Below are positions 20,047-27,868 of a stretch of DNA of 64,000 bases, piece after piece. The stretch is from positions 1 through 64,000 of the forward strand of contig JAUSPT010000100.1 of NCBI GenBank assembly GCA_030652805.1. The letters are read 5' to 3'. The DNA comes from a bacterium. GTDB taxonomy: Bacteria > JAHJDO01. The notes under the pieces are model-generated. The model saw only the letters and a list, made by a program, of their open reading frames with translations, searched no databases and was not told the DNA's origin. A program made the translations under genes and the position numbers. Position 1 is the stretch's first letter. Each line of letters begins with the position of its first letter.

Positions 20047-20199
20047 ATGAAAAGCTTAATTGAGATGGCAGGAGGTAAATAAAAAGTGAATTGCGCTAAT
20101 ACAAAGGGAATATTCCGTATCATTCAGTCTATTCCTTCAAAAAAAGGCTGGTTGGAGCGTGATAAAAAGGAGGTGATAGACGATGTTAGATCAAAATAA
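20047..20199 (+). pseudogene. Remnant of a BRO/DinD-type antirepressor gene
   Basis: One frame reads MKSLIEMAGGK, a TAA at 20080-20082, then KVNCANTKGIFRIIQSIPSKK. The second part matches the conserved core of BRO/DinD-like phage antirepressors, in which DGK-Y precedes a TKGIFRIIQSIPS segment. The TAA stands where a Tyr codon would be expected, so it looks like a nonsense mutation. The rest of the protein is missing and the frame runs out inside the start of the RhuM gene. It marks the left part of the defence island as a site of decayed phage-type genes. Confidence 0.5.
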
Positions 20200-21235
20200 A
20201 TCACAGCTTATTATTTACCAGACCGAAACAGGTGAAACTAAGATTGACGTGAGGTTCCAAGATGAAACGGTATGGCTGTCTCAACAGTTAATGGCAGAAC
20301 TATTTCGGACAACCAAGCAAAACGTAAGTCTTCATATTAGAAATATTTATGAAGAAGAGGAATTGTCGCCTCAAGCAACTGTCAAGGAATTCTTGACAGT
20401 TCAAAAAGAAGGCGAACGAAAAGTTAGACGTAAAGTAGAATTTTATAATCTCGATATGATTATATCTGTTGGGTATCGCATTAAGTCTAGGGTAGCAACT
20501 CATTTCAGACAATGGGCAACACGTCATTTAAGGGAATATATAGTTAAAGGGTTTGTTTTAGATGATGAGCGGCTTAAGAATCCGAATCAGCCGTTTGATT
20601 ATTATGATGAGTTAATTAGACGTATTCAGGATATACGAACATCCGAACGGCGTTTTTATCAAAAAATCACAGATATTTATGCCACAAGCGTTGACTATGA
20701 CCCAACAAATGAAATGAGTATTGATTTTTTTAAGACCGTTCAAAATAAGATGCATTGGGCGATTACAGGGAAAACCGCTGCAGAAATTATTCATAAAAGA
20801 GCAGACAGTAAGAAAGCAAATATGGGATTAACAAGTTGGCGGGGAGTAAAAATTCGCAAAGATGATGTAGAAATTGCGAAAAACTATTTAGACGAAAAAG
20901 AATTGATGGCTTTAAATAATTTAGTTGAACAATATTTGATTTTTGCAGAGGGACAGGCAATGAGACGTATTCCAATGTATATGAGAGGTTGGATTACTAA
21001 GTTGGATTCCTTTCTGCAACTCAACGAAAGAGAAATATTGATGCACGCAGGGAAAATATCGCATCAGATTGCCATGGAAGCCGCAGAGAAGGAATACGAA
21101 AAATATTCTAAAAAAAGACAGATTGCTTATGACAAAAGAGAAAATTCTTTTGATGTATTAGTTAACGAAACGAAGAAAATAGAAAGTAAAAAAGGGACAC
21201 ATACAATGTTAACATCAAAAATGGTCAGGGGATAG
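20183..21235 (+). CDS. rhuM: RhuM family protein
   Basis: The 350-residue protein matches the RhuM (virulence-associated) family: ETKIDVRFQDETVWL-x-QQLMAELF at the start, the VEFYNLDMIISVGYR core near 92 and FRQWATRHLREYIVKGFVLDD near 112. RhuM proteins are widespread in restriction-modification and other defence loci, but their biochemical role is not established; the N-terminal part resembles a KilA-N/BRO-type DNA-binding unit. AAAAGGAGGTGA supports the start. The sequence after it forms a hairpin with a T-run that can end transcription. Its place between a BRO remnant and a restriction system is typical. Confidence 0.88.
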   Translation: MLDQNKSQLIIYQTETGETKIDVRFQDETVWLSQQLMAELFRTTKQNVSLHIRNIYEEEELSPQATVKEFLTVQKEGERKVRRKVEFYNLDMIISVGYRIKSRVATHFRQWATRHLREYIVKGFVLDDERLKNPNQPFDYYDELIRRIQDIRTSERRFYQKITDIYATSVDYDPTNEMSIDFFKTVQNKMHWAITGKTAAEIIHKRADSKKANMGLTSWRGVKIRKDDVEIAKNYLDEKELMALNNLVEQYLIFAEGQAMRRIPMYMRGWITKLDSFLQLNEREILMHAGKISHQIAMEAAEKEYEKYSKKRQIAYDKRENSFDVLVNETKKIESKKGTHTMLTSKMVRG

Positions 21236-21255: not shown

Positions 21256-21284
21256 TTTGTAGGGGCACAATATCTTGTGCCCTT
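21256..21284 (+). repeat. Palindromic repeat, left copy of a perfect 29-bp inverted pair
   Basis: The unit reads TTTGTAGGGGCACAATATC and continues to CTTGTGCCCTT. Its exact reverse complement is at 27840-27868. The internal palindrome GGGCACAA/TTGTGCCC is followed by a T-run (21283-21289), so this copy can also act as the terminator for rhuM. Confidence 0.9.
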
Positions 21285-21437: not shown

Positions 21438-23246
21438 ATGCCAAGAATAAAAGATATACCAAAAATTGATCGGCCAAGGGAAAAGTTTCTCAAAAAAGGG
21501 CCAGAGGCTCTTTCTAAAAGTGATCTTTTGGCAATCCTTTTAGGTAGTGGGATAAAGGGCAAAAATGTTAAACAGCTTTCAGAAAATATAATAAAAAAAT
21601 TCGGTAAAAACTTTTTAAATATAACTGTTGATGATTTATTAAAAATTTCAGGAATTGGTCAGGCCAAAGCTTTGCAAATCGCTTCTGCTGTTGCTTTAGT
21701 AAAAAGATATTATGACGAAAAAGAGCCAAAAAGAAATCTCGTTTTATCGGTCAATGACGCAATTGCTTTAACCTCTGACTTAAAAGAAAAGAAAAAAGAA
21801 TATTTGATTTGTCTTTACTTGAATGCAAGAAATGCTTTGCTGAAGAAGGATATTATATCAATCGGTACTCTTGATAAAAGCCTAATTCATCCAAGAGAAA
21901 TTTTTGGTCCTGCCGTAGAATTGCGATCAGCAGGTATTATATTGGTTCACAACCATCCCTCAGGCGATCCGTCACCAAGCAAACAGGATATTGATATTTT
22001 TAACAAGATTATTGAAGCTGGCAAGATAATGGGAGTCAATATTATTGATATTATCATTATTGGCGACGATAAAATCTACAGTTTTTTCAAAGATTTACAG
22101 CAGGGTAAAAGCACTGATTATGTTTCAGACGGCATACAGTATTCGCTTTTTGATTTACTAGAAGCAGAAACATCTGCCTACACTCCCGCAACTACTAAAG
22201 TTAATAAAATTTATTTTTCACTAAAAAAAAGAAATATTGTAGGGAAATTTCAAATACAAAATCGACGTTTTCTTGGGAACAAATATAAACTTCTTGGTTT
22301 CATTGAGGATATTGTTAATGAAAAATGCAATGGATTTAATTCCTTTTGCGATATATTTGCTGGTACTGGCGTTGTAGGCGAGCGGTTTAATGAAAAAGAT
22401 ATAAAAGTTATCAGCAATGATTTATTATTTAGCAATTACTTCCCTCTAAAAACTTTTCTTGGCTCTACACAAATAAACTTGGATACTCTCAAAGAAAAAA
22501 TTGATTTATTGAATGACTTAAAAGTCAATCAAGACAATTATTTTTCTATTCACTACGGTGATACTTATTTTACCTTGGAGAATGCAAGAAAAATAGGTGT
22601 CATTAGAGAAAAGATTGAAGAACTTGCAAGCAATAAAGATGAAAAAGCCGCACTTATAACTGCCTTGCTATACGCTACCGATAAAGTTGCAAATACAGTT
22701 GGACACTATGACGCATATAGAAAAAAATTAGATACAATACAGCCAATACAGCTTTTAGTGCCTGACATTGCTTTAGATAGTAACAGCAATAATGAAGTTC
22801 TACGAGAAGATGCGAATTTACTTATTCGAAAAATATCTTGTGATGTTTTATATATGGATCCGCCTTACAATTCGCGCCAGTATTGTGATGCTTATCATTT
22901 GCTAGAGAATCTTGCAACTTGGAAAAAACCGCAGGTGTATGGAAAGGCAAAAAAAATGGATAGGTCTCGTATAAAAAGCGATTACTGTTTGAAAGCCGCC
23001 ATGAGAGCATTTAATGATTTAATTAAAAATGCAAACTGTAAACATATTTTAATTTCGTATAATAATACTGGTGAATCAAAAGACGGAAGATCAAACGCGC
23101 GTATAAAGGATGAAGAGATTATAAATATACTCAAAAATAAAGGGGATGTTGAAATTTTCGAAAGAGATTATAAAGCTTTTACAACAGGCAAAAGTAATGG
23201 TAATGGAAACACTGAACGTGTCTTTTACTGTAAAGCAACAAAATAA
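21438..23246 (+). CDS. RadC (JAMM)-D12-class adenine DNA methyltransferase fusion
   Basis: 602-residue fusion. Residues 1-225 are a complete RadC/UPF0758 protein: N-terminal helical region, helix-hairpin-helix ISGIGQAKAL (70-79), and JAMM site HNHPSGD (171-177) with Asp184, all metal ligands present. After a linker (about 226-265), residues 270-602 form a D12-type N6-adenine methyltransferase: RRFLGNKYKLL, AdoMet motif FAGTG (307-311) and catalytic DPPYN (474-478). No stop, ATG, GTG or TTG occurs in frame at the junction, so it is one protein. The endonuclease gene starts two bases downstream. It should methylate one strand of the site; the RadC role is unknown. The ATG at the family's usual RadC start is preferred over a TTG nine codons earlier. 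Confidence 0.9.
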   Translation: MPRIKDIPKIDRPREKFLKKGPEALSKSDLLAILLGSGIKGKNVKQLSENIIKKFGKNFLNITVDDLLKISGIGQAKALQIASAVALVKRYYDEKEPKRNLVLSVNDAIALTSDLKEKKKEYLICLYLNARNALLKKDIISIGTLDKSLIHPREIFGPAVELRSAGIILVHNHPSGDPSPSKQDIDIFNKIIEAGKIMGVNIIDIIIIGDDKIYSFFKDLQQGKSTDYVSDGIQYSLFDLLEAETSAYTPATTKVNKIYFSLKKRNIVGKFQIQNRRFLGNKYKLLGFIEDIVNEKCNGFNSFCDIFAGTGVVGERFNEKDIKVISNDLLFSNYFPLKTFLGSTQINLDTLKEKIDLLNDLKVNQDNYFSIHYGDTYFTLENARKIGVIREKIEELASNKDEKAALITALLYATDKVANTVGHYDAYRKKLDTIQPIQLLVPDIALDSNSNNEVLREDANLLIRKISCDVLYMDPPYNSRQYCDAYHLLENLATWKKPQVYGKAKKMDRSRIKSDYCLKAAMRAFNDLIKNANCKHILISYNNTGESKDGRSNARIKDEEIINILKNKGDVEIFERDYKAFTTGKSNGNGNTERVFYCKATK

Positions 23247-23248
23247 CT

Positions 23249-25066
23249 ATGAAAAAACCTTGGTCAATAACAACAACACTTCGGAATCCTGAAAGATTAA
23301 GAAATTTCTTAACTGTTTTACAGCAGCTAGAAAATCTTGAATGGAATTTGGAAAATCAAAAGAAATACCAAATTCTCTTAATCAAAAACAGAATTTATGG
23401 ATATGGAAGCGTGCAATTTTATAATGGATTATTCCAAGAACAAATTGATTTGATAGATGATCAAACAAAAGAAATCCCTTTTGGAAAAGCAGAAGAAATT
23501 TTTAATACAAAAAACTATGAAGACTCAGCCATGAGAGGAAGGCAGTCAATAAATCCTCTCAAAAAAATTGGGCTAGTTTCCATAAAAGATAAAAAAATAT
23601 TCATAACAAGTTTGGGGAAGTCATTTTTAAAAGATGATTTCGATTTTGGAGAAATATTTTTTAGAAGTTTTATAAAATGGCAAATCCCGAATCCTGACAG
23701 CAGTGATTATAAACTTGAAGATGGATATGATATAAAACCATTTATAGGAGTTTTGCATCTTATTCAAAAAGTTAATGAAAAGTCTTTAAAGTTAGGGAAA
23801 AAAGCAAAAGGTATTAGTAAAGGGGAATTTTCTTTATTTGCCCCAACTCTCGTAACTTTTTCAAATATAGATTGTTATGCTAAAAAAATTATTAAATTAA
23901 GAAAGAAAATGGAAGAAAAAACCAAACAAGAACAAAAAACGATTTTTAATAATTATAAGAAAGTTTTTGCACAAGAATTTTTGGAATCATCAAATGTGGA
24001 AGAAACAAACAAACTCTTACAAAATCTAAAAGATTATGGAGATAATGCAATAAGGTATTTTCGTTTAACTCGCTACATTTATATTCGTGGTGGCGGATTT
24101 TATATTGATTTAGAACCAAGAAGATCAATTGAAATTGAAAATTTACTCAGCTTTGATAATGGACAATCAAAAACCTTTAAAAATAAAGAAGAATATTTAG
24201 ACTATATTGCTGACATTTCACAACCAAAACTGTCTTGGGAAACAAAAGAAAAATTTATTGAAATTATTTCTAAACTTCTAGAAGACATAAAATCTTACGA
24301 AGAACAATTAAACATAACCTCAAGAGAAATTTTAGATTTTAAAGATTTGGAAGAAGATTGTCTAAAAAACTATATTACAGAACTAAGACAATATAGAAGA
24401 GAATTACAAGACAAAGAAAATCACTTAAAATCACAAGATATTGAACAAATTGATGAATATATAAAGAATCTCGAAAATATTTTTGATTTTGAAGATAGAC
24501 CAATTTTACTGGAAAAATTATCTGCCCTTGGATTAAACGCTTTAAACGATGCTTTAAAAATCAAACCAAATTACCCTGTTGGGGATGACAATGAGCCGAC
24601 TTTTACAGCGCCAGCCAATACGCCAGATATTGAATGTTTTTATGAGAATTTTAACGCAATTTGTGAGGTAACAATGCTTACGAGCAAGGATCAGTGGTAT
24701 AATGAGGGGCAACCAGTAATGAGGCATTTGAGAGATTTTGAAAGCAAACATCAAGACAAAAAATCTTATTGTTTATTTATAGCTCCAAGACTTCATCGGG
24801 ATACAATCAATACGTTTTGGACAGCTATAAAATATGAATACGAAGGAAGTCCACAAAAAATAATTCCGTTATCAATAAATAATTTTGTATTACTCTTAAA
24901 AATCTTAGTTCAAATAAAATTAGAGAATAAGTTTTTAAGACACAATGAACTTGCACGTTTGTATGATGAAATACTGGATTCCTCAAAATTTTTTAATAAC
25001 TCTAATAAGTGGTTAAGAAATATTCCCAACGCCATTTCTTCATGGCAAAAAGGCCTTAGTTTTTAA
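23249..25066 (+). CDS. AlwI-family type IIS restriction endonuclease
   Basis: 605-residue protein starting KPWSITTTLRNPERLRNFL, the characteristic opening of the AlwI family, whose known members cut or nick at a fixed distance from asymmetric 5-bp sites (AlwI GGATC; PleI/BstNBI-type GAGTC). The C-terminal nuclease region has TPDIECFYENF (about 457-467) and AICEVTML (about 469-476), the acidic pair of a PD-(D/E)XK-like site. The middle is helical and charged and may recognise DNA. It lies between two methylase genes with 2-base gaps on each side, so the three should be one transcript. The exact target cannot be read from sequence. Confidence 0.87.
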   Translation: MKKPWSITTTLRNPERLRNFLTVLQQLENLEWNLENQKKYQILLIKNRIYGYGSVQFYNGLFQEQIDLIDDQTKEIPFGKAEEIFNTKNYEDSAMRGRQSINPLKKIGLVSIKDKKIFITSLGKSFLKDDFDFGEIFFRSFIKWQIPNPDSSDYKLEDGYDIKPFIGVLHLIQKVNEKSLKLGKKAKGISKGEFSLFAPTLVTFSNIDCYAKKIIKLRKKMEEKTKQEQKTIFNNYKKVFAQEFLESSNVEETNKLLQNLKDYGDNAIRYFRLTRYIYIRGGGFYIDLEPRRSIEIENLLSFDNGQSKTFKNKEEYLDYIADISQPKLSWETKEKFIEIISKLLEDIKSYEEQLNITSREILDFKDLEEDCLKNYITELRQYRRELQDKENHLKSQDIEQIDEYIKNLENIFDFEDRPILLEKLSALGLNALNDALKIKPNYPVGDDNEPTFTAPANTPDIECFYENFNAICEVTMLTSKDQWYNEGQPVMRHLRDFESKHQDKKSYCLFIAPRLHRDTINTFWTAIKYEYEGSPQKIIPLSINNFVLLLKILVQIKLENKFLRHNELARLYDEILDSSKFFNNSNKWLRNIPNAISSWQKGLSF

Positions 25067-25068
25067 CT

Positions 25069-25857
25069 ATGAGTATGAAAAAAAATATTATTTACAACGA
25101 TGATTGCATAAAAATACTTAATACAAAAATTGATAAAAAATCAATTGATCTTATTTTTGCTGACCCTCCTTATAATCTTTCTGGCAATGGGTTGAAGTGG
25201 GAAGGAAATAAAACGGGTGGGGACTGGTATATGGTAAATGAAGAATGGGACAAAATGACCGCTCCTGAATATATGCAATTTACAAGAAAGTGGATTGGAG
25301 CTTGCCATAAAATTTTAAAAGATACTGGTTCAATTTATATTGCTTGTAGTTATCACAATATTGCTGAAGTAATGATTATTTTAAAACAGCTGGATTTTAA
25401 GATAAATAATATCATTACTTGGTACAAAACAAATGCTATGCCAAATATGACAAGGCGAATCTTTACTCATTCTACAGAATTTATTGTTTGGGCGGTAAAA
25501 GGTAAAAAGTGGATTTTTAATTACGAGGAGCTTAAAAAGATTAATCCGGAAAAACAAAAAGATGGGTCGTTAAAACAAATGCGAGATGTGTGGTCTTTGC
25601 CTTTGGTGCAAGGTAAAGAAAGATTGAGAGGGAAAGATGGTCGAGCTTTGCATCCAACACAAAAACCAGAGGAGGTGCTTAAACGAATTATTGTTGCCTC
25701 TTCTAATAAAGGCGATTTAGTTTTAGATCCATTTTTAGGAAGCGGCACAACTGCGATAATAGCAAAAAAAATGGGAAGAAATTGGATTGGAATTGAGAGA
25801 AGCAAAAAGTATATAGAGATGGCAAAGAAGCGGATTGATGTGAAATTAAAGAAATAA
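25069..25857 (+). CDS. Beta-class DNA (N4-cytosine/N6-adenine) methyltransferase
   Basis: 262-residue site-specific methyltransferase. The catalytic motif DPPYNLSG (about 32-39) comes first and the AdoMet motif DPFLGSGTT (about 222-230) near the end, the order that defines the beta class; HPTQKP before it is typical. It stands directly after the AlwI-type endonuclease. An asymmetric site needs separate methylation of each strand, and this enzyme together with the RadC fusion methylase supplies two activities. Adenine versus cytosine target is not certain, though DPPY favours N6-adenine. Confidence 0.92.
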   Translation: MSMKKNIIYNDDCIKILNTKIDKKSIDLIFADPPYNLSGNGLKWEGNKTGGDWYMVNEEWDKMTAPEYMQFTRKWIGACHKILKDTGSIYIACSYHNIAEVMIILKQLDFKINNIITWYKTNAMPNMTRRIFTHSTEFIVWAVKGKKWIFNYEELKKINPEKQKDGSLKQMRDVWSLPLVQGKERLRGKDGRALHPTQKPEEVLKRIIVASSNKGDLVLDPFLGSGTTAIIAKKMGRNWIGIERSKKYIEMAKKRIDVKLKK

Positions 25858-25943: not shown

Positions 25944-27650
25944 ATGAGAATCAAACAATTAATACTTAAAGATTTCGGCCCTTTCAATCGCTACAAGATA
26001 TCATTTGTAGAAGAAGATGAAATCTGCATGCTGCTGACAGGAAAGAACAATGAAGGAAAATCTAGCATAATAAATGGATTAAAACTCCTTAATGATGCAA
26101 CAAAGGTCATAAACAAGAAAAAACAGGAAATAAAGATTGACGGAGACTACTATTACAAACTTCTTCAACAAGACACAGAAAATTTTCTTGTTGGTAGAAT
26201 GATTCATAACTATAAAGAAAATAGGGCGGAGATTATTGGAATCTTTCAAGGTGGTTTGGAAATTACCGTATACTTAGACCCTATCGAAAATATGATATTT
26301 GCAAATTTTGAAGGTTGCATCCCTGTTGATGTACATAACATTTTCGGTTTCATACCTCCCCTTGGACCACTGAATGAGAACGAAGACATAATTACAAAAT
26401 TATCCTATCTCAAAGCAAGTATTGATACTTCTCTTGCACCTCGACATCTTAGAAACCACTTTTATCAAATTCTCACTAAAGACGAATTGGCTCTTGTTAG
26501 GCAACTTATAAAGAGGTCTTGGGTAGGCATTGAACTACTTGACTATGAGCTTAACTATCAACAAGGGAAAATATATTGCTATTACAAAGAGGGTGGTATT
26601 GGTCGTGAGATTTCTTGGGCAGGTCAAGGGCTTCAAGTTTGGTTCCAAATTATTACTCATGTTGTCAGACTCAGGGAATCTTCAATCCTAATACTTGATG
26701 AGCCAGAAATTAATCTCCATCCAGAAAAGCAAAACGATATTATAAGAATATTAAAAGATTATTATCATGGAAGTATTATAATCGCAACTCATTCCATTGA
26801 ATTAATGAACAATGTTAGTGTTAGCCATATCATTAATGTCCAAAAAAAACACAACAAGCCAAAAATTAAATCAACAAAGGATAGGGTTTACTTAAACTTG
26901 GTACGGTCTCAAATTGGAAGCAATTTTAATCTAATTGCTTCACAATTCGAAGAGTTTGATATTATTGTTTTCACCGAAGATACATTTGATTTTGACATAC
27001 TTCAACAGATAGCATTGGATTATAAAATAAGGAAAAAAGCTTTCAATATTCCAATTTATGGTTTTAGCGAATTTAATAAATGTATCTCCTATAAGCACGC
27101 ATACAAGACACTAATTGGAAAGGACATAGACTATACCCTTGTCCTGGATAGGGACTACTATCCGGAGGAATATCTAAAAAAAGTTACAGAAATCCTTAAA
27201 ACCTCAAGCATTAAGGTCGTTTTTACGCCAGGAAAAGAAATTGAGAACTTATTTCTATCACCGGATATTCTAACTGCGTTAATTCCAGAAACATCTCATA
27301 AAAAATTTTCAAAGATTTGGGATGAAATGTTTGAATCACTTCGTCTGGATTGCTATGGAAGTTATCTCACACTTCATGGCCAATTCTTAGATCCTAAATT
27401 AGACACAAAAACTATTGCAACACGTTACACTCCTGTTTTTGAAAAATGCTGGAGTGATACTAAGAATAGGCACAAGATTGTTTCAGGAAAAGAAGCGTTG
27501 AAGGTGTTAAGAAAATTTTACAGAGATGAGACTAAAAGTAATCTAAGCCAAAATTTACTTATTGAAAAACTTATTCAAATAGAAAATGAAAACATCAAGC
27601 AATTCATTGAAGAAGTTTACCAATTAAGGAAAACCAGGGGACGTTCATAA
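25944..27650 (+). CDS. OLD-like ATPase with TOPRIM-like nuclease domain
   Basis: 568-residue protein. The N-terminal ABC/SMC-like ATPase has Walker A TGKNNEGKSS (32-41), a signature-like SWAGQGLQVW near 228, Walker B SILILDEPEINLHP near 245, and a switch histidine in ATHSIEL near 278. The C-terminal part resembles a TOPRIM nuclease: VFTEDTFD (about 341-348), VLDRDY (about 400-405) and GKEIENLFL near 432 provide the acidic residues. This plan is that of OLD-family nucleases and other ATPase-nuclease defence proteins. No GajB-type helicase or reverse transcriptase is adjacent, so it may be a solitary system or an accessory to the restriction module. Confidence 0.78.
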   Translation: MRIKQLILKDFGPFNRYKISFVEEDEICMLLTGKNNEGKSSIINGLKLLNDATKVINKKKQEIKIDGDYYYKLLQQDTENFLVGRMIHNYKENRAEIIGIFQGGLEITVYLDPIENMIFANFEGCIPVDVHNIFGFIPPLGPLNENEDIITKLSYLKASIDTSLAPRHLRNHFYQILTKDELALVRQLIKRSWVGIELLDYELNYQQGKIYCYYKEGGIGREISWAGQGLQVWFQIITHVVRLRESSILILDEPEINLHPEKQNDIIRILKDYYHGSIIIATHSIELMNNVSVSHIINVQKKHNKPKIKSTKDRVYLNLVRSQIGSNFNLIASQFEEFDIIVFTEDTFDFDILQQIALDYKIRKKAFNIPIYGFSEFNKCISYKHAYKTLIGKDIDYTLVLDRDYYPEEYLKKVTEILKTSSIKVVFTPGKEIENLFLSPDILTALIPETSHKKFSKIWDEMFESLRLDCYGSYLTLHGQFLDPKLDTKTIATRYTPVFEKCWSDTKNRHKIVSGKEALKVLRKFYRDETKSNLSQNLLIEKLIQIENENIKQFIEEVYQLRKTRGRS

Positions 27651-27839: not shown

Positions 27840-27868
27840 AAGGGCACAAGATATTGTGCCCCTACAAA
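27840..27868 (-). repeat. Palindromic repeat, right copy of the perfect 29-bp inverted pair
   Basis: Reverse complement of 21256-21284 with no mismatch over 29 bp. With the left copy it brackets the RadC-methylase, endonuclease, methylase and OLD-like genes. The 606-bp gap (27651-28256) holds the Eco57I remnant, this copy, four other repeats and the trxB promoter; I see no further gene in it. Confidence 0.9.

Follow-up and report, generated by a model that had tools for sequence, protein, structure and literature searches.

The closest described relatives of the system considered here are the type IIS restriction systems of AlwI, PleI, MlyI and N.BspD6I (BstNBI), whose endonucleases belong to the RE_AlwI family. 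Asymmetric targets of this kind are served by N6-adenine methylases; a single GASTC methylase is reported for MlyI, and two joined methylases for AlwI (PMC4081073). We analyzed a system with an endonuclease of the same family in a 64,000-nucleotide stretch of bacterial DNA (hereafter the window; positions 1 to 64,000 of contig JAUSPT010000100.1, assembly GCA_030652805.1). Forward-strand genes at 21438-25857 encode a first methylase (M1), the endonuclease and a second methylase (M2), and M1 is fused at its N-terminus to a RadC protein through a linker with a peptide that resembles the sliding clamp-binding motif. Among these systems, RadC and the clamp-like peptide on M1 are the window system's own feature. 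Its M2 is a separate, CcrM-like protein, and no gene for a BspD6I small subunit was recognized adjoining it. The AlwI-family systems of Firmicutes (Lactococcus, Enterococcus and Staphylococcus plasmids, and the MhoVII-related family) have an M1 that is 40-50% identical to that of the window and, in most, an AlwI-family endonuclease close to M1, as in the window. However, the N-terminus of their M1 is short or helix-turn-helix (HTH)-like and lacks RadC, and their second methylase, of the D12/Dam-like kind, is often joined to M1. As a restriction system, that of the window is of a known kind; what is new is the exchanged module of RadC and a putative clamp box on the methylase.

Few bacterial proteins that lack an agreed function are as widespread as RadC. 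It is frequent on conjugative elements and is predicted to process nucleic acids, and its JAB domains reportedly have no groove for a ubiquitin tail (PMC5512222). Comparison of the fold of a RadC-like domain pointed to metalloproteases, not nucleases (PMC11981726). Neither of these two papers gives an established enzymatic activity for any RadC. They do describe RadC joined to other DNA enzymes, in RadC-like DinG and in conjugative polyvalent proteins (PMC11981726, PMC5512222), but there RadC is paired with a helicase or a multidomain transfer protein instead of a DNA methylase. Free-standing RadC (UPF0758) has the helix-hairpin-helix and JAB domains and the catalytic residues in common with the fused module.

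The window comes from a genome of 2.0 Mb in 102 contigs, whose phylum comprises five genomes, all of one genus, in the collection searched. The fusion is encoded by an uninterrupted open reading frame with an ATG start (21438-23246, 602 residues) that comprises RadC, a linker and a D12 adenine methylase. The RadC domain (residues 1-217; 21438-22088, forward strand) contains UPF0758_N (PF20582), which is the helix-hairpin-helix region (residues 4-78, E = 6e-23), and the RadC JAB domain (PF04002, residues 107-218, E = 6e-36). The protein passes the NCBIfam NF000642 cut-off, and its RadC part matches PDB 2qlc (E = 8e-23; TM-score 0.84-0.86). M1, the D12-class N6-adenine DNA methylase (residues 270-602; 22245-23243, forward strand), was identified by Pfam (MethyltransfD12, residues 278-522, E = 3e-31), by PADLOC (MTase_II, E = 3e-115) and by its Dam-like fold. 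The motifs HNHPSGD, FAGTG and DPPYN start at residues 171, 307 and 474, respectively. An initial annotation, made from the sequence alone, had described a complete RadC with a helix-hairpin-helix and JAMM ligands that runs without a stop or internal start codon into a D12 methylase with FAGTG and DPPYN. The domains and motifs bear this out, and the linker has no in-frame ATG, GTG or TTG. To the JAMM ligands H171 (21948-21950), H173 (21954-21956) and D184 (21987-21989) we add the glutamate, E154 (21897-21899), so that the set spans 21897-21989 on the forward strand. Pfam detected no HTH domain in the window's fusion protein.

A profile of the methylase was used to scan 84,980 species genomes, and the best 80 of 585 confirmed matches were examined. 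RadC was present in the same protein at 37 of these 80 loci, with the fusion spanning residues 1-600, and the RadC module was found at about 45 further loci besides the window. Because these loci are independent, a frameshift or misassembly at the RadC-methylase junction, for which positions 22100-22240 had been flagged, is ruled out. The metagenome-assembled genomes (MAGs) with fusions are labeled as Clostridia, Omnitrophota, Atribacteria, Ignavibacteriales, Gammaproteobacteria, Margulisbacteria, Auribacterota, Nautiliales, many Patescibacteria and three archaeal lineages. Many of these loci lie on short contigs and single taxon labels may be wrong, while some contigs are long (608 kb in L071, 303 kb in L068 and 150 kb in L060; L numbers designate retrieved loci). 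The module is rare in the phyla we sampled: four clear full-length fusions, plus fragments, were found in 379 Patescibacteria genomes, three in 285 genomes of the Omnitrophota sample and one in 395 genomes of the Ignavibacteriales sample, the last in the genome on which that sample was centered.

The fused module was not found in INPHARED, PLSDB or IMG/VR at the sensitivity used, the single-protein scans of IMG/VR being matches of exact 8-residue words that are blind to distant relatives. A match across the linker in phage MT835522 was merely a short tail, NFLKDGIKY, and a 422-residue open frame at L143 was rejected as a RadC fusion since its RadC stops normally. Separately, a methylase encoded on a viral contig of 146 kb (L023:4926-5999) shares 64% identity with M1; it has neither RadC nor an adjoining AlwI-family endonuclease and is possibly a phage counter-defense methylase. 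As to whether many database hits already describe the fusion, a possibility the initial annotation had raised, the many matches exist, but a description in open-access papers was not found. Our search of 5.39 million open-access papers, with subscription papers and REBASE outside its range, retrieved neither a RadC-methylase fusion nor a clamp motif on a restriction methylase.

The fused RadCs form one lineage that sits on several kinds of methylase. Type A systems (the window, L044-L058 and L098) consist of RadC-M1, the endonuclease and a CcrM-like M2. In type B systems (L059-L077, L082 and L091), RadC-M1 is accompanied by a Dam-like D12 methylase and by an AlwI-family endonuclease that is more distant. 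Between the two types, the methylases are ~42% and the endonucleases ~26% identical, compared with 62-72% for RadC. Members of this RadC clade also occur in fusions with three kinds of C5 methylase (L212; L156 and L214; L215). Overall, the fused modules are 58-72% identical to that of the window, whereas free-standing RadCs from the same genomes and the sampled phyla are at most 48% identical to the module and end soon after the JAB domain, without a Q-x-[ST]-L-F tail. In a maximum-likelihood tree, all fused RadCs form a single clade with a support of 100/100 and a long stem. Within it, types A and B are interleaved, and the C5 fusions are nested among the type A forms nearest the window.

One pair of loci captures an exchange between the two types. 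L058 (type A, labeled Paceibacter) and L075 (type B, labeled Altiarchaeales) have a DNA identity of 0.91 over RadC and 0.92 over residues 218-245, which then falls to 0.63 and 0.60. The breakpoint, at about residue 245, lies just past a conserved linker peptide. RadC and this peptide, YVADGxQx[ST]LFDLLE, have been exchanged together between systems, in a unit whose end lies immediately behind the peptide. The unit is also constrained. In close pairs, the ratio of nonsynonymous to synonymous substitution rates (dN/dS) is mostly 0.01-0.1 in both halves of RadC, comparable to the methylase, and 0.014-0.10 in the JAB half; E154, H171, H173 and D184 are each invariant in 38 of 38 aligned fusions. 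The JAMM site of the fused clade is thus intact and under purifying selection. The earlier suggestion that RadC works with modification gains support from the conserved fusion, from the strong purifying selection on it and from the presence of the same clade on several unrelated methylases. A separate case adjoins the RadC fusion of L055, where a C5 plus Eco57I-type double methylase (L055:14048-16693) starts with the first 11 residues of the module and retains a QSELF peptide but has lost RadC.

The linker of the window's fusion covers about residues 218-269, and its AlphaFold2 per-residue confidence (pLDDT) is below 50 over residues 230-266. Within it, residues 228-242 (YVSDGIQYSLFDLLE; 22119-22163, forward strand), with the consensus YVADGxQx[ST]LFDLLE, have a mean conservation of 0.77, compared with 0.44 and 0.54 in the flanks; the rest of the linker (22164-22244, forward strand) is variable. 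A conserved peptide within a region predicted to be disordered has the profile of a short binding motif. The bacterial clamp motif has the consensus QL[S/D]LF, in which positions 1, 4 and 5 matter most; position 2 is variable in DnaE1, and in DnaE the motif follows a helix-hairpin-helix region (PMC3919608). It is frequently found in unstructured regions and is able to bind clamps across the bacterial-archaeal boundary (PMC4549789). Among 45 fused modules, motif position 1 is Q in 44, position 3 is S or T in 39, position 4 is L or I in all and position 5 is F in all, and position 2 varies. In the window, the clamp-like peptide is QYSLF (22137-22151), with Q234 and F238 as the motif Q and F. With Q-x-[SDT]-L-F in a flexible region, as in beta-clamp-binding proteins, the linker would contain a candidate DnaN-binding peptide, DYVADGIQGTLFDLLEIEK.

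The DnaE proteins of the hosts themselves have the same motif at the clamp site in 13 of 14 cases. DnaE of the window's genome reads QTLFFDVF, and in the L051 genome DnaE reads QTSIFDLF and the fusion linker QETLFDLF. In the open reading frames of the retrieved loci, which served as background, a 50-residue stretch contains Q..LF with a frequency of 0.6% and Q.[ST]LF[DGEAN] with a frequency of 0.08%.

Relatives of M1 with other N-termini place the module in context. Several type A methylases without a full RadC have a motif before the methylase: QLSLF in L083, QLPLF in L087, QYLLF in L081 and QYSLF in L088. In L087 (L087:7395-9083), LexA, with its DNA-binding domain and S24 peptidase, is in frame with the same D12 methylase, and QLPLF lies in the linker; an apparent second LexA-methylase fusion is truncated at its 5' end (L086:9-1208). 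The N-terminus of the L085 methylase is an HTH_3 domain, and that of a Lactococcus relative is HTH-like. L088 (L088:7938-9338) has what appears to be the helical half of RadC only, a likeness that is weak (35% identity over 94 residues, below the Pfam threshold), and lacks the JAB domain but keeps QYSLF. A lexA gene lies directly upstream of the type A methylase gene in L044 (L044:3561-4256) and L083 (L083:7308-7943) and ~0.5 kb upstream in L081 (L081:6866-7477), hinting at damage-regulated restriction-modification. Judged from these sequences, this methylase family has an N-terminal slot, where RadC takes the place that DNA-binding, regulatory or damage-sensing domains occupy elsewhere. The mobility of the module, the clamp-like peptide and the occurrence of LexA or HTH domains at the same place go beyond what the initial annotation expected.

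Free-standing RadCs also occur beside restriction genes. Of the 26 nearest the module, 8 lie immediately 5' of restriction-modification genes, compared with 2 of 33 more distant ones (Fisher p = 0.016, or 0.03 with a sister pair counted once, in a small sample that had not been assembled for this comparison). Three of the genes 3' of RadC encode HsdM (L005, L142 and L162) and one a type I N-terminus (L216); methylases follow RadC in L159 (type III) and L185 (type II), and Sau3AI/MutH-like endonucleases in L168 and L169. At these loci, the ends of the RadC and restriction-modification genes often overlap or nearly touch.

From the linker motif and its context, we infer that RadC and the linker peptide may act as a mobile N-terminal adaptor that tethers restriction-modification methylases to the replication and repair clamp, with RadC acting alongside; we consider this about as probable as all other explanations together. 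In the proposed mechanism, the disordered peptide would bind DnaN, the beta sliding clamp, in the same manner as its counterpart in DnaE, and the helix-hairpin-helix region would bind DNA without strong sequence preference. With both contacts in place, the methylase would stay at repair patches and replication forks, where it could modify new, still unmethylated sites before the endonuclease arrives. The AlwI-family enzyme would cut an asymmetric, GAGTC-like site, of which M1 would modify one strand and M2 the other, and fast maintenance would matter because each methylase of an asymmetric site should modify one strand only. The target of the JAMM site would be a protein or nucleic acid located at the clamp; the site might, for example, clear a block to methylation. 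In its fuller form, in which a dedicated, horizontally exchanged module of RadC and clamp box tethers unrelated methylases to the clamp and the JAMM site of at least one RadC clade acts there, the proposal is tentative, and we think it somewhat likelier to fail than to hold. The clamp-like peptide would point to newly replicated or repaired DNA, and not to the recognition of unusual DNA, removal of a regulator or protection of incoming DNA that had been suggested earlier. Eukaryotic DNMT1 is a methylase with a PCNA-binding box in its N-terminal disordered region. Its methylase is unrelated and its clamp and motif are different, but by analogy the fusion might work in a similar way.

A working clamp peptide would mean that some restriction systems couple modification to replication and repair. 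Such coupling would explain how these systems avoid cutting their own new DNA, and it would be a prokaryotic counterpart of DNMT1-PCNA targeting. A RadC clade that is repeatedly joined to easily measured enzymes and to a peptide with an obvious candidate partner also makes a role for RadC testable.

Several observations weigh against clamp tethering. Y228, V229 and G232, which precede the motif and fall outside known clamp motifs, are conserved as well; the conservation of YVADG means that selection extends beyond a minimal clamp box, and the linker peptide may bind something else or something more. The close M1 relatives in L080, L084, L085, L090 and L093 have neither RadC nor the motif, so neither is essential for modification. 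Three loci are labeled archaeal (L047, L049 and L075), where the clamp is PCNA, although these are short MAG contigs that may be misbinned. Tethering also leaves the JAMM reaction unaccounted for.

Since RadC occupies the slot of regulatory domains in sister methylases, the N-terminal module might instead control its own restriction operon, as an HTH domain does, or sense DNA damage, as LexA does. The HTH_3, LexA-S24 and HTH-like domains at the same place and the lexA genes upstream of three type A methylases would fit such a role. RadC, however, has no sequence-reading domain by Pfam, and the clamp-like peptide would be left unexplained. Where type A and type B loci have related RadCs, the sequences upstream are for the most part 40-50% identical, and accordingly no shared operator was seen upstream of the fusions, although no systematic search was made; only L058/L075 and L051/L059 looked alike by eye. 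We consider regulation, the main alternative to tethering, unlikely. The LexA of L087, likewise a peptidase, suggests another role, in which JAMM cuts the linker in a self-processing reaction parallel to LexA self-cleavage, or cuts a regulator, and so releases or switches the methylase. The invariance of all four JAMM residues, the conserved linker peptide with its near-invariant glycine and the metalloprotease-like fold of the RadC-like domain (PMC11981726) are consistent with a peptidase. The reported lack of a ubiquitin-tail groove (PMC5512222) argues against one, no cleavage site was identified, and L088 has lost the JAB half yet retains the helix-hairpin-helix-like part and QYSLF; we consider this role improbable.

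Much the same improbability, if marginally less, attaches to a role as nucleic-acid helper, with branched or single-stranded DNA as the substrate of RadC in uptake or repair and with the methylase fusion serving to protect incoming DNA or to spread the system. The frequency of RadC on conjugative elements and its predicted nucleic-acid processing (PMC5512222), the jumps of the system between distant lineages and the position of the nearest free-standing RadCs 5' of restriction-modification genes favor this role, but no fused module was found in the phage, plasmid and viral collections. Because RadC and restriction-modification genes are often neighbors, a read-through fusion could also arise easily, and RadC might have no function in it. 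This is hardly credible given one clade on several kinds of methylase, repeated swaps, low dN/dS and invariant catalytic residues.

The initial annotation had also placed an AlwI-family endonuclease and a beta-class methylase after the fusion with 2-base gaps, an arrangement confirmed by coordinates and Pfam. The endonuclease (605 residues; 23249-25066, forward strand; RE_AlwI, PF09491, E = 8e-83) belongs to the N.BspD6I branch of type IIS enzymes. Its closest match is N.BspD6I (GAGTC; PDB 2ewf, E = 4e-34), with which its acidic catalytic pattern PD..E..E lines up. M2 (262 residues; 25069-25857, forward strand; N6_N4_Mtase, E = 1e-64) is a CcrM-like, beta-class N6-adenine methylase whose closest match is CcrM (GANTC; PDB 6pbd, E = 7e-63). 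Because of these two matches, a GAGTC-like target seems likelier than the GGATC of AlwI. Two predicted N6-adenine methylases would fit the asymmetric target proposed earlier. GAGTC is not depleted in the window (47 observed, 44 expected), which is too little sequence to judge. Across the window (1-64000), GATTC/GAATC falls below the Markov expectation (107 compared with 141), whereas GAGTC and GGATC do not. A C-terminal clamp motif in the endonuclease or M2 was considered and rejected; the window's endonuclease ends in QKGLSF, but this end is variable.

The neighboring genes encode a RhuM-family protein upstream (20183-21235, forward strand; Pfam), not shown to belong to the system, and an AAA/OLD-like ATPase downstream (25944-27650, forward strand), not conserved at other fusion loci. 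Outside the system lie REP (repetitive extragenic palindromic)-like repeats, with the left copy (21256-21284, forward strand) forming a 29-nucleotide perfect inverted partner of the right copy (27840-27868, reverse strand). The REP designation is suggested by an apparent REP-associated tyrosine transposase that overlaps the copy at L253. The repeat TTGTAGGGGC, examined in the window and at L243, L244 and L253, has 20 copies in the genome. All five exact copies in the window are located at the borders of the 6.5-kb cassette, in inverted orientation; most of the other copies in the genome are single and beside ordinary genes, but the same layout encloses a type I restriction-modification system on contig C41 and a type III system on contig C12.
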